A program made the translations under genes and the position numbers. A DNA stretch of 22,505 bases, taken from NCBI GenBank assembly GCA_040752395.1, contig JBFMHD010000012.1:1-22505 (forward strand), in the 5' to 3' direction. The notes beneath the pieces are model-generated. The model worked only from the letters and a program-made list of their open reading frames with translations, did not search any database and was not told the DNA's origin. Shown here piece by piece: positions 2,779 to 22,412 of the stretch. The first letter of the stretch is position 1. Every line of letters begins with the position of its first letter. The DNA comes from JBFMHD01 sp040752395 [NCBI: Candidatus Hydrogenedentota bacterium] (GTDB lineage: Bacteria; JBFMHD01).

Positions 2779-3186
2779 TTAAGCTGTTGGTGCTGGTACC
2801 GGTGCAGGAGCCCTTACTTTCTCTCTCTTCGCCCCGTATTTTGATCTCCCTTGCTTCCGGTCAATAACACCAGCTGCGTCAAAAGCGCCCCTGATAATGT
2901 GATACCGTACCCCGGGTAAATCCTTTACCCGCCCCCCTCTTATAAGAACAATTGAGTGCTCCTGAAGATTATGTCCTATACCAGGTATATATGAAGTAAC
3001 TTCCATCCCTGATGTCAGTCTCACTCTCGCCACTTTTCTTAAAGCAGAATTAGGTTTTTTGGGTGTTGTTGTATAAACCCTCGCACAAACACCACGGCGC
3101 TGCGGGCAACCTTTTAATGCTGGCGACTTGGATTTCCATCTCACCTTTTCTCTGCCTTTTTTAACTAACTGATTTAATGTTGGCAT
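2779..3186 (-). CDS. rpsL: 30S ribosomal protein S12
   Basis: Decoding-centre protein of the small subunit that contributes to tRNA selection accuracy. The sequence has the invariant [11 protein letters not shown] start, the [11 protein letters not shown] loop at about residues 41-51, and the [20 protein letters not shown] segment. The lysines whose substitution gives streptomycin resistance in other bacteria are unchanged. At 135 residues it is about ten longer than E. coli S12 because of a proline- and alanine-rich tail (the last 11 residues), which looks disordered. It is the first gene of the str operon. A GAGG Shine-Dalgarno precedes the ATG, and a dispersed repeat (3197-3222) ends just before it. 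The promoter and terminator-bearing leader at 3322-3519 lie upstream in the same direction. Confidence 0.98.
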
Positions 3187-3196
3187 AACAAACCTC

Positions 3197-3245
3197 GTAA
3201 TCCCTCAATTATAGGTGGAATTTAGAAGCAAGATGCAAGATAACG
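3197..3245 (-). repeat. Dispersed composite repeat, uninterrupted copy upstream of rpsL
   Basis: On the minus strand this reads TCTTGCATCTTGCTTCTAA, then AATTCCACCTATAATTGA, then GGGATTACG. The second and third parts match, with few changes, the sequences flanking the inserted elements at 3682-3794 and 18798-18887 once those are removed. The TCTTGCTTCTAAAT part is also found, 14 nt identical, at 11005-11045. This is therefore the unoccupied form of the target repeat. It ends about 10 bp before the rpsL start codon. Confidence 0.75.
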
Positions 3246-3587: not shown

Positions 3588-3643
3588 TTTGGTTTTCGGT
3601 TTCCGGTGTTCGGTTCACCGATAACCCAAAACCCAAAACCGAA
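3588..3643. repeat. Heptad hairpin repeat, family D
   Basis: Units of 7 bp beginning GGTTTTC, GGTTTCC, GGTGTTC and GGTTCAC run from 3591 to 3618. They are answered by CGATAAC, CCAAAAC and CCAAAAC, then CGAATAT, from 3619 to 3646. Pairing positions that sum to 7231 gives a hairpin in which each heptad pairs through its GGTTT core and mismatches cluster at the last two positions. The sequence is unrelated to families A and B, but the 7-bp period and fold-back are the same. It is followed directly by CTTGCTTCTTG of family C. A partial inverted copy of the target repeat (core CTACCGAAAACTAAG on the minus strand) lies beside it at about 3549-3582. Confidence 0.8.
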
Positions 3644-3681
3644 TATCTTGCTTCTTGCCCCTTAATTCCACCTATAACTGC

Positions 3682-3794
3682 GAACGTGTGAAAAAATATA
3701 TTAAATGTAGTTTTAATAATTTGTTAAAAATAATATAAATACCTCATCTTAAAGACGCATCTAAAGATGCTCACCACAATTTTTTCACACGTTC
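3682..3794. mobile_element. Small element with 16-bp terminal inverted repeats, copy 1
   Basis: GAACGTGTGAAAAAAT at 3682-3697 is matched exactly by its reverse complement at 3779-3794. TGC stands immediately outside each end (3679-3681 and 3795-3797). Removing the 113-bp element and one TGC leaves a sequence that matches the uninterrupted repeat before rpsL at 23 of 26 positions. The interior has no open reading frame of note and contains the short repeat GCATCTAAAGATGC. This is what a non-autonomous, MITE-like insertion with a 3-bp target duplication would look like. No transposase lies in the window. The right end supplies the last codons and stop of rfbD. Confidence 0.65.
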
Positions 3795-4672
3795 TGCGGA
3801 ATTACTTCTTTACCTAATTCTTTTAATGCATGCTGAGTATCCATTATTTCTATCCCTATCTCTTTTTTAATCTTATCAATCAATAATCCTGCTTTTTTAG
3901 GCCTTTTTGCCCGCTGAGCCAACTCCTCTGTTTTTACCGGTACTATAAGTCTTTTATCTAAACCAAAAATCTCTGCTATCATATAAGCAAATTCTGATCG
4001 TGATAATATATCAGGCCCTGCTATATTGTATATCCCTTTCTTCTTTTTTTTGATTAATCTCAAAATACATTCTGCCAGTACCTCAGTGTAAGTCGGACTT
4101 GATACCTGATCATAAGGAACCTTAATATCTTTACTTTTTCTTAATGCGTCAATCAAACGCAATACATAATTTTTTCTGTATCTGTCATTGCCGTATAGCA
4201 CTGTTGTTCTGATGATTAACGAGTCCTCCGGCCGATTTGTTACTATAATATTCTCTGCATCAAATTTGGTCTTACCGTATACGCTTATCGGACGGGGAAT
4301 GGACTCTTCGATATACGGTCCACTCTCTCCATCAAAAACATAGTCAGTAGATAAAAAAACAAAATACACCGCATCCCCTGTATTCAACATAAGTTCTTGT
4401 GTAAATTCAGTATTACAGAGATACGCCTCTTCTTTATTATCTTCACAATAATCAACAAGATTTAACGCTGAGGTATGAATAATTATATCAGGCTTGAACT
4501 GGTTTATAGTATCTTTAATAGTTTTTTTATCATACGGCGTCATTAAAATTAAATCGTCATAAGTTTTTCTGGTTATATAAGTCCCTAAAATATCGTAATT
4601 ATTATTTTTCAATAGCGGATATAAAACCTGACCTGTCTGACTGCTCGCACCTGTTAATAAAACTCTTTGCAT
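3785..4672 (-). CDS. rfbD: RmlD-like NAD(P)-dependent sugar-nucleotide reductase
   Basis: Short-chain dehydrogenase/reductase of the dTDP-4-dehydrorhamnose reductase family, which makes dTDP-L-rhamnose for surface polysaccharides. The 295 residues begin with a Rossmann glycine motif TGASSQTG (7-14). STDYVFDG follows at 108-115 and the catalytic Y-x3-K at 132-136 (YGKTK), then the substrate-side IIRTTVLYG. The first glycine motif is GASSQTG rather than the commoner GANGQLG. No rmlA, rmlB or rmlC is nearby, so the true sugar substrate is open; related MAT2B-like reductases share this fold. It follows rng by 31 bp and is probably co-transcribed with it. The last codons and stop lie inside the inverted repeat of the element at 3682-3794, so the C-terminus may have been altered by that insertion. 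Confidence 0.8.
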   Translation of the reverse strand: MQRVLLTGASSQTGQVLYPLLKNNNYDILGTYITRKTYDDLILMTPYDKKTIKDTINQFKPDIIIHTSALNLVDYCEDNKEEAYLCNTEFTQELMLNTGDAVYFVFLSTDYVFDGESGPYIEESIPRPISVYGKTKFDAENIIVTNRPEDSLIIRTTVLYGNDRYRKNYVLRLIDALRKSKDIKVPYDQVSSPTYTEVLAECILRLIKKKKKGIYNIAGPDILSRSEFAYMIAEIFGLDKRLIVPVKTEELAQRAKRPKKAGLLIDKIKKEIGIEIMDTQHALKELGKEVIPQNV

Positions 4673-6250: not shown

Positions 6251-6324
6251 CAGGACAGGCTACAGGCTACGGACTACAGCCGGCTGGAGCCAAAAGCCCG
6301 GAGCCTGTAGTCTGGAGCCTGCTG
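6251..6324. repeat. Heptad hairpin repeat, family A copy 2
   Basis: GGCTACA and GGCTACG units lead to the AGCCGGCT centre (6278-6285) and continue as GGAGCCA, AAAGCCC, GGAGCCT, GTAGTCT and GGAGCCT. A stretch of 45 nt (6247-6291) is identical to 22279-22323. Just before it, 6226-6250 reads as AAGTAAG heptads. Family B follows within a few bases, giving the same A-then-B order as at 22285-22412. Confidence 0.88.
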
Positions 6325-11357: not shown

Positions 11358-11478
11358 AGCTTCAGACTTCGGGCTCTTCAGTCTCCAAGGTCCTGGCTTC
11401 AGGCTCCAGCCGGCTGTAGTCCGTAGCCCGTAGCCTGTAGTCTGCAAGCTGAAGCCCGTAGTCTGTAGCCTGGAGCTA
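11358..11478. repeat. Heptad hairpin repeat, family A copy 3 (longest, reversed)
   Basis: The centre AGCCGGCT is at 11408-11415. Here the CTTC/CTCC units are on the left and GTAGCCY units on the right, the reverse of copies 1, 2 and 4. The right arm holds nine heptads in register (11416-11478), among them GTAGTCC, GTAGCCC and GTAGCCT. The left arm loses register at GGCTCTTCA, which has two extra bases. It ends GCTAACATA, like the flank of copy 1 (GCCAACATA). The predicted rpsT leader includes the whole structure. Confidence 0.85.
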
Positions 11479-13864: not shown

Positions 13865-14239
13865 TTATCTCATTGTTGAAGAGGTGTGGTTTGTTATTGT
13901 AAACGAGATGCATTTACCGTTTTTAATTATTCTGCGAATAAATATATTATCTTTCAGAGCCTGTTTAAGTTCATCTTCAGTGTACGGTATAATATCAACA
14001 CTGACTGGAAATCGTGCTGGGAGATAATCAGGTATCCGATCCCTCATTCTTTTATCTGAATGAGATAAAACAAGCAGGATATCCATATCACTCCCTGGTG
14101 CATATGTCCCGTTGATAAAAGAACCAAAAAGATAGGCTACTTTAATTTCAGGATGACTAACTTTTAATTTTTCAAGATAGTCATAAGTTTTACGTAAAAC
14201 CTCTTCCTTATCAATTGATCTTACTTTTACAGTACTCAA
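13865..14239 (-). CDS. MNT-family minimal nucleotidyltransferase
   Basis: Small polymerase-beta-fold nucleotidyltransferase of 124 residues. The active-site signature GS-x10-D-x-D is intact: G39-S40, then D51 and D53 in [10 protein letters not shown]. The third acidic position is probably in SVDIIPY (D about 87). Such proteins pair with HEPN proteins, and in some pairs they neutralise the partner by adding AMP to it. The start is TTG at 14239 with AGAGGAAA about 8 nt upstream, inside the end of the HEPN gene, giving a 29-bp overlap. The C-terminal residues after about 112 ([10 protein letters not shown]) are not typical of the family. Whether this pair is a toxin-antitoxin module or a metabolic pair is open. 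Confidence 0.85.
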
Positions 14240-14597
14240 TTATTTCCTCTGCTAATCTAATTGATTCTTCAGCCTCGTTCCTTGTATAAAAGTCAGTTGG
14301 CGCACCTTCGTTAAACCCATTGGGATAACGCGATATGATATAATGTTTGTCAAGTATTTTTCCCTTTTCTATTAACTCTGTGCTGACACCTATCTCATAA
14401 GGAAGGTTAGCAAGAAGTATACTCAGGGTATGTCCCCACGCATCAAGATGCAGTCTCTGATATAAAGATTTAATGGCTTTCTCTGCGGCCTGGTGCGCAG
14501 CAAAACATGACCATTCAAAATCTCCAGCTATTAATGAATTTTTTGCATGTTTTAAATCAGAAACAGCCTGTTTCATCCAGTCCTGATGTCTTTGCAT
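14211..14597 (-). CDS. HEPN-domain protein partnered with MNT
   Basis: All-helical 128-residue HEPN protein. WMKQAVSDLKHAKNSL at 7-22, the helix FAAHQAAEKAIKSLYQ at 32-47 and RYPNG at 90-94 are the usual landmarks of the RYPD-type HEPN branch. Toxic HEPN RNases carry an R-x4-6-H motif. The nearest match here is R48-x7-H56, one residue too long, so RNase activity is doubtful and needs a structural alignment. It is translated just ahead of the nucleotidyltransferase with overlapping ends, the arrangement seen in HepT/MntA pairs. A consensus promoter lies 40-70 bp upstream. No clear Shine-Dalgarno precedes the ATG. Confidence 0.82.
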   Translation of the reverse strand: MQRHQDWMKQAVSDLKHAKNSLIAGDFEWSCFAAHQAAEKAIKSLYQRLHLDAWGHTLSILLANLPYEIGVSTELIEKGKILDKHYIISRYPNGFNEGAPTDFYTRNEAEESIRLAEEIIEYCKSKIN

Positions 14598-14706: not shown

Positions 14707-14813
14707 AGATGCGCCTAAAGTCTAAAGAACGGGTCTTTGGACCCTCTTTACATTATATTGATTATATTGGAATTACAAAAAATAAAAAATGTAGTGAGCA
14801 TCTTTAGATGTGA
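14707..14813. repeat. Repeat-rich spacer with family F copy
   Basis: In the 356-bp gene-free spacer 14598-14953, AAAGATGC (14707-14714) is inverted as GCATCTTT (14798-14805). GGGTC and GACCC (14733-14746) form a small hairpin. 14784-14813 is an inverted copy of family F. Further on, 14880-14912 is built from loose 7-bp AATTTG units. No gene is seen. The ends at 14637-14666 and 14920-14947 are promoters. Confidence 0.5.
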
Positions 14814-18741: not shown

Positions 18742-18776
18742 AAGAAGCAAGATGCAAGAGGCAAGAAGCAAGATAA
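18742..18776 (+). repeat. AAGAAGC heptads, family C (five units)
   Basis: AAGAAGC, AAGATGC, AAGAGGC, AAGAAGC and AAGATAA occupy five consecutive 7-bp units, the clearest tandem array of this family. It joins the target repeat ACTCCACCGAAAACTGA and then the inserted element at 18798. The 446-bp spacer 18586-19031 holds this array, the element, two promoters and no gene. Confidence 0.85.
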
Positions 18777-18797
18777 AGAAACTCCACCGAAAACTGA

Positions 18798-18887
18798 GAA
18801 CGTGTGAAAAAATTAGACTTTTTTTAGAAAATGTGGACTGATAATAAAAAAGTTAGCAGGTATTAATGTTGATTATTTCACACGTTC
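18798..18887. mobile_element. Small element with 16-bp terminal inverted repeats, copy 2
   Basis: GAACGTGTGAAAAAAT (18798-18813) is matched at 18872-18887 by the inverse with one change. TGA stands just outside each end (18795-18797 and 18888-18890). Removing the 90-bp insert and one TGA leaves ACTCCACCGAAAACTGAGG and CATTACGG, which align with the uninterrupted repeat before rpsL. The interior differs from copy 1 in length and sequence, so only the ends are conserved. Confidence 0.65.
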
Positions 18888-18917
18888 TGAGGCATTACGG
18901 AATTTCTAATTTTTATC

Positions 18918-22201: not shown

Positions 22202-22244
22202 ATCACTCCTCTGAAAAACATTGTAATTATAATAATATCAAGTA

Positions 22245-22273
22245 GAAGCAAGAAGCAAGATAACGGAAGAAGT
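22245..22273 (+). repeat. AAGAAGC heptads upstream of amrS
   Basis: GAAGC, AAGAAGC, AAGATAA, then CGG and AAGAAGT. It sits just outside a TATAAT (minus strand, 22231-22226) that may serve amrS, so heptads of type TTGCTTC or TTCTTGC fall where a -35 would be. Confidence 0.65.
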
Positions 22274-22284
22274 GAGAGGTATCA

Positions 22285-22341
22285 GGACAGGCTACAGGCT
22301 ACGGACTACAGCCGGCTGGAGCCCGAAGCCCGGAATCTGCT
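22285..22341. repeat. Heptad hairpin repeat, family A copy 4
   Basis: Centre AGCCGGCT at 22310-22317, left arm units GGCTACA, GGCTACG and GACTACA, right arm GGAGCCC, GAAGCCC and GGAATCT. 22279-22323 is identical to 6247-6291 for 45 nt, which suggests recent copying. Family B starts 4 bp later. Confidence 0.88.
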
Positions 22342-22344
22342 GAA

Positions 22345-22412
22345 AAGTCTTGAGTCTTGAGTCTCGAGTCCTGTTTTGACTCACGACTTGCGACTTGTGA
22401 CTCACGACTCTT
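22345..22412. repeat. Heptad hairpin repeat, family B long copy
   Basis: Left arm of four heptads (22345-22372), loop CTGTTTT between the innermost paired bases (22371-22377), right arm of five heptads (22378-22412). Pairing positions that sum to 44748 aligns every GTC on the left with a GAC on the right, with wobbles or mismatches between cores. It has two more heptads per arm than the copy at 6327. After it, ATATCATCTTTAGTTTTTCAT (22417-22437) repeats the sequence that follows copy A1 at 86-106. Confidence 0.88.

Follow-up and report, generated by a model that had tools for sequence, protein, structure and literature searches.

Two MITE-like insertions with shared ends in a Candidatus Hydrogenedentota contig and ISAzo13-type transposases as their candidate movers

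The window analyzed here, a stretch of 22,505 nucleotides from contig JBFMHD010000012.1 of a Candidatus Hydrogenedentota bacterium, carries a short, MITE-like and non-coding element at positions 3682-3794 (element 1; 113 bp, 26% G+C). Its left terminal inverted repeat, GAACGTGTGAAAAAAT (3682-3697, forward strand), recurs as a perfect copy on the reverse strand at the right end (3779-3794), and both ends are bordered by the triplet TGC (3679-3681 and 3795-3797), a probable target duplication. The first-pass annotation had given the length, the perfect 16-bp inverted ends (16/16 positions match) and the TGC on both sides exactly, and its statement that the element lacks coding capacity agrees with the absence of any ORF of at least 80 aa inside it. 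An RmlD-like gene on the reverse strand (3785-4672; Pfam PF04321, E 3.9e-60) shares the last 10 bases of element 1, which is located at the 3' end of this gene and holds its stop codon inside the right end: the last residues and the stop (CAG AAC GTG TGA) come from the element, while across the joined flanks the same ORF would read CAG TTA TAG. The ends carry a stop in one reading frame (GTG TGA), and element 1 uses precisely that frame, so that the neighboring gene is altered only in its last residues. No Rfam match at the gathering score and no tRNA were detected in the window. As a separate observation, 27 bases from the right half of element 1 (3758-3784) recur in inverted orientation at 14784-14810 with 93% complementarity and without the terminal GAACGTG; this is perhaps a related or decayed element.

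The end sequence GAACGTGTGAAAAA, allowing up to 2 mismatches, occurs at four sites in the window compared to 0.28 expected, a number reached in none of 100 shuffles. Two of these sites delimit a second element at 18798-18887 (element 2) that was absent from the first-pass annotation. It spans 90 bp with ends that are alike at 15 of 16 positions, has an interior unlike that of element 1, contains no ORF of at least 80 aa and is bordered by TGA on either side (18795-18797 and 18888-18890), again a probable target duplication.

Each element lies within a copy of one and the same host sequence, which is also present without an insert. The empty copy (3197-3222, reverse strand), directly upstream of an ORF that we read as rpsL (2779-3186, reverse strand), agrees at 23 of 26 positions with the joined flanks of element 1, just as had been claimed for a deletion of the element together with one TGC, with the match lying on the reverse strand. 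These flanks (3664-3681 and 3795-3805, forward strand), joined with one TGC, read AATTCCACCTATAACTGCGGAATTAC; over 60-80 bp, their local alignment to the empty copy has a score of 66, compared to at most 38 in 300 shuffles, and the resemblance continues into a repeat of the ATCTTGCTTCTTGC type. The host sequence around element 2 (18780-18797 and 18888-18898, forward strand) is a diverged copy with the insertion at the same point, and its joined flanks agree in fixed register at 21 of 26 positions with the empty copy and equally with those of element 1; the best of the remaining 26-mers in the window has 18 of 26 in common with the empty copy. Local alignment scores are mixed, with 43 for site 1 against site 2 (maximum of 300 shuffles 35) and 38 for site 2 against the empty copy, which stays below the maximum of 48 in 300 shuffles; together with the fixed-register match, this makes the host copy at site 2 likely but diverged. 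The three copies thus hold no insert, 113 bp and 90 bp, respectively, rather than an insert of one fixed length throughout, and the earlier claim of an empty site was borne out, with the empty copy being a paralogous site rather than the corresponding site of a sister strain. Perfect inverted ends, 3-bp repeats that differ between sites, the second filled copy and the same ends, mostly beside TNA, in other phyla all speak for insertion, and the reading of elements 1 and 2 as insertions is supported.

The window holds further features. Short intergenic runs of 7-base units, several of which have inverted partners nearby, include runs of AAGAAGC or AGTCTTG units detected with Tandem Repeats Finder (18742-18773, 22244-22268 and 22346-22370) and a GGTTTTC-type run found by eye (3598-3643). 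A dispersed, partly palindromic intergenic repeat (CAGGCTACAGGCTACGGACTACAGCCGGCTGGAGCC...) forms a family of its own at 26-91, 6256-6321, 11386-11451 and 22288-22353, and a HEPN / nucleotidyltransferase (MNT) gene pair with the usual make-up of a toxin-antitoxin system (PF05168, PF01909) lies at 13865-14597 on the reverse strand.

A scan of bacterial genome contigs for GAACGTGTGAA followed 46-106 bases further on by its reverse complement recovered 18 stretches in 10 genomes, comprising 12 from Burkholderiales, 3 from Acidobacteria, 2 of Bacteroidetes type (including a Saprospiraceae) and 1 from a Planctomycete. Identical 3-bp flanks border 10 of these 18 stretches. The Planctomycete stretch was rejected as an element on inspection, being a run of tandem GAACGTGT units, and the loci of genome G009 that we read as such tandem GAACGTGT repeats (L016, L023 and L126) were left out of the end and flank counts below. 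Across hosts, the ends are constant while the interiors are unlike each other, the listed two-ended places range from 37 to 200 bp, and the host sequences differ from genome to genome. The window has two copies; single ends are also found in all 10 genomes and are most frequent in the element-rich G002 (28 end matches forward and 22 reverse). In genome G008, single ends of the form TGA|GAACGTGTGAAG(C)A.. immediately follow stop codons at five loci (L058, L060, L061, L062 and L065), and no partner end was detected in their vicinity. Plasmids yielded one distant match for a Variovorax element and, for the window element, nothing beyond weak short matches, viral contigs matched neither the paired-end pattern nor the 7-base-repeat pattern, and a literature search with the end motif gave, among the matches listed, no title about a bacterial repeat.

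From the loci fetched around such ends, we collected 123 distinct exact ends, of which 65 are flanked by TNA (TCA 31, TGA 28) and 58 are not as counted. When a two-ended element is defined by a partner end with at most one mismatch, there are 59 distinct ones including those of the window, and 29 of these have identical 3-bp flanks, whereas in 5000 within-genome shuffles the number averages 15.0 and never exceeds 24. The triplets concerned are TCA (16), TGA (6), TAA (2) and one each of TTA, TGC, AGA, GCA and CGA, and the usual form of the flanks is CTCA[..]TCAG or CTGA[..]TGAG. Identical flanks are the rule in the window (2/2), G008 (5/5), G007 (4/5), G004 (3/4) and the genomes with a single two-ended element (G001, G003 and G010, 1/1 each) and are found at 4/7 in G005 and 2/4 in G006, but at only 6/29 in G002. 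The TGA of element 2 conforms to TNA like most others, and the TGC of element 1 is an exception. Since the triplet changes with the site, it looks like duplicated target DNA and not like a fixed part of the element.

At the Burkholderiales loci, 19 of 20 TGA triplets abutting an element end close a long open frame and are probable stop codons, compared to 878 of 4813 other TGA triplets. In a control with crudely called genes, 7 element flanks fell at a stop, 15 inside an ORF and 8 elsewhere, while other CTGAG/CTCAG sites were distributed as 13, 132 and 16, respectively. With sites inside ORFs set aside, the share at stops is much alike (7/15 for element flanks and 13/29 for other sites), so that no preference for stop codons is demonstrated beyond selection against coding insertions, and such selection against insertions in genes may explain the placement. 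A more far-reaching proposal is that one transposase lineage keeps the 11-bp end in Burkholderiales, Acidobacteria, Bacteroidetes and the host of the window and favors stop codons as targets (C-TGA-G at gene ends); its passengers would then spread while leaving genes intact, and the single ends of G008 would be functional. In our view, this is quite unlikely.

We propose that both elements are MITEs moved in trans by a DDE transposase, a reading to which we assign a probability of roughly 85%. Such an enzyme, whose action in trans we infer, would recognize the 11-16 bp end GAACGTGTGAA(AAAAT) and cut a target, mostly C-TNA-G, with a 3-base stagger, and this staggered cut would place each element between two copies of a target triplet (TGA for element 2 and TGC for element 1). 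No transposase gene bearing the ends GAACGTGTGAAA was found, in searches that were samples and leave room for a partner. Whether the mover is a member of the ISAzo13 family (PF07592), which has similar ends and targets, is about an even bet judging from these sequence resemblances. ISAzo13 elements are described as making 3-bp duplications (PMC10045372). Out of 33 ISAzo13 loci examined, 11 had delimited ends and 10 were used for a profile, giving the end consensus GGACCTGTCAATAAAT and duplications of TAA or TTA, with C before the target in 6/10 and G after it in 7/10. The end of the window elements fits this profile better than its own permutations do, with a permutation p of 0.0002 over positions 2-16 and 0.006 over positions 2-11. 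Loci L239 and L208 had been excluded, their arms resembling chance matches in G+C-rich DNA, and with both put back the values are 0.0002 and 0.007; with only the three loci that were found without the TNA condition, they are 0.0005 and 0.009. A leading G was itself required by the search, as was a TNA flank for most loci, and neither is independent evidence. In a control, the end finder gave no hits in 34 other transposase loci and hits in 5 of 29 RAYT-like loci, whose genes have inverted repeats of their own.

The elements share with ISAzo13 a 3-bp TNA duplication and may share an end that starts with G and follows G....TGT.AA..AAT, but differ in that the delimited ISAzo13 elements shown are 1.27-1.33 kb long and contain a transposase gene. 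The Saprospiraceae ends carry an additional G and depart from the ISAzo13 profile (p about 0.06), and the exact end GAACGTGTGAA is in none of the ISAzo13 elements found. PF07592 itself was detected in none of the 10 genomes holding the end motif and in none of 74 genomes of the family of G002, while the same search matched 7/300 genomes of the order of G005, 26/344 of the phylum of G004 and 33/395 of the phylum of G006. In the parts of the literature covered by our search, we found no description of MITEs like these in the ISAzo13 family.

The same target would also suit a transposase of the IS5 group. IS1031/ISL2-type elements make 3-bp TNA duplications at C-TNA-G targets. NuwaII, a member of a eukaryotic IS5/Harbinger-like group, also has a C-TNA-G target with duplication of TNA (PMC4482050). 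That the window elements are MITEs of an IS1031/ISL2-like enzyme rather than of ISAzo13 nevertheless appears unlikely to us: no transposase of this group with these ends was seen in the 9 genomes searched, and paired ends were present at none of 20 DDE_Tnp_1 loci from 8 element-bearing genomes nor at PF13586 loci, with the 3 matches to PF13359 (in 2 of 9 genomes) falling on contig places already covered by these checks. The DDE_Tnp_1, DDE_Tnp_1_2 and DDE_Tnp_4 genes checked in element-bearing genomes, none of which has these ends, were rejected as movers. More radically, there might be no insertion at all and the elements could be a variable stretch inside a dispersed repeat, or else paired regulatory sites, as one might suspect from the location of both window elements in copies of one host sequence and from the partnerless ends kept right after stop codons in G008; we give this reading hardly any credence in light of the empty copy of the host sequence, the wide range of lengths, the different host sequences of different genomes and the excess of repeated 3-bp flanks over shuffles.

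Several properties of the elements would also suit REPIN-like DNA mobilized by a RAYT, an IS200-related transposase of the Y1 (HUH) type that acts on end hairpins, yet we judge this very improbable. Like REPINs, the elements are intergenic and palindromic, and REP-like hairpins occur in the interiors of those from Acidobacteria. Two elements of this type enclose a Y1-like gene in Acidobacteria G004 and G010 (L098:1237-1851; Pfam Y1_Tnp E 0.0002, below the curated cut-off), their ends GAATGTGTGAAA and CAATGTGTGAAA pointing outward from it, and a 44-residue remnant of this gene is found beside another element of G004. Relatives of the gene, sought in 347 genomes, were matched in 25, and among 30 RAYT-like Acidobacteria loci inspected, these ends adjoin the gene in only two, which form one orthologous pair, whereas other inverted repeats lie on both sides in 25. 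Y1_Tnp had no match in G002, G003 and G008, a set that includes two genomes rich in elements, and plasmids had no match for the Y1-like protein. The elements also fold well as single strands (z -5.85 for the 113-base and -3.46 for the 90-base element), but most of the pairing comes from the ends themselves, with the interiors alone at z -2.64 and -0.79, respectively. Furthermore, the elements show identical 3-bp flanks above shuffled expectation (29/59), an HUH enzyme would not be expected to duplicate 3 bp of its target, and the REPIN/RAYT family is not known for target duplications. Because, among the loci inspected, these ends belong to a single orthologous pair, we set the RAYT reading aside and take the Acidobacteria elements as neighbors of the gene or carriers of its REP-like hairpins and not as its general substrate. 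Separately, the Acidobacteria loci L174-L201 comprise divergent Y1 transposase genes, most of them bordered on either side by inverted repeats of REP type, for instance CAGAACCGCCTGCGTAAGCGGGCGG.

The preferred reading, MITEs mobilized in trans by a DDE transposase, places the window elements in a group of MITEs with a shared end, and this kind of element is already known. Chunjie, a MITE of Geobacter uraniireducens, is likewise short, non-coding and intergenic with inverted ends, direct repeats, variable length and partial copies (PMC10969869). Judging from its description, it differs in being 178-235 bp long and found in one genome, whereas the elements studied here have the same end in several phyla together with unrelated interiors.

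MITEs are common, and two more of them are ordinary. Of greater interest are the recurrence of one short end sequence, with unrelated interiors, across several phyla and the placement of the Burkholderiales insertions, most of which lie at the stop codon of a gene and leave the protein unchanged. If the link to ISAzo13 is true, these elements would be MITEs of the ISAzo13 family.
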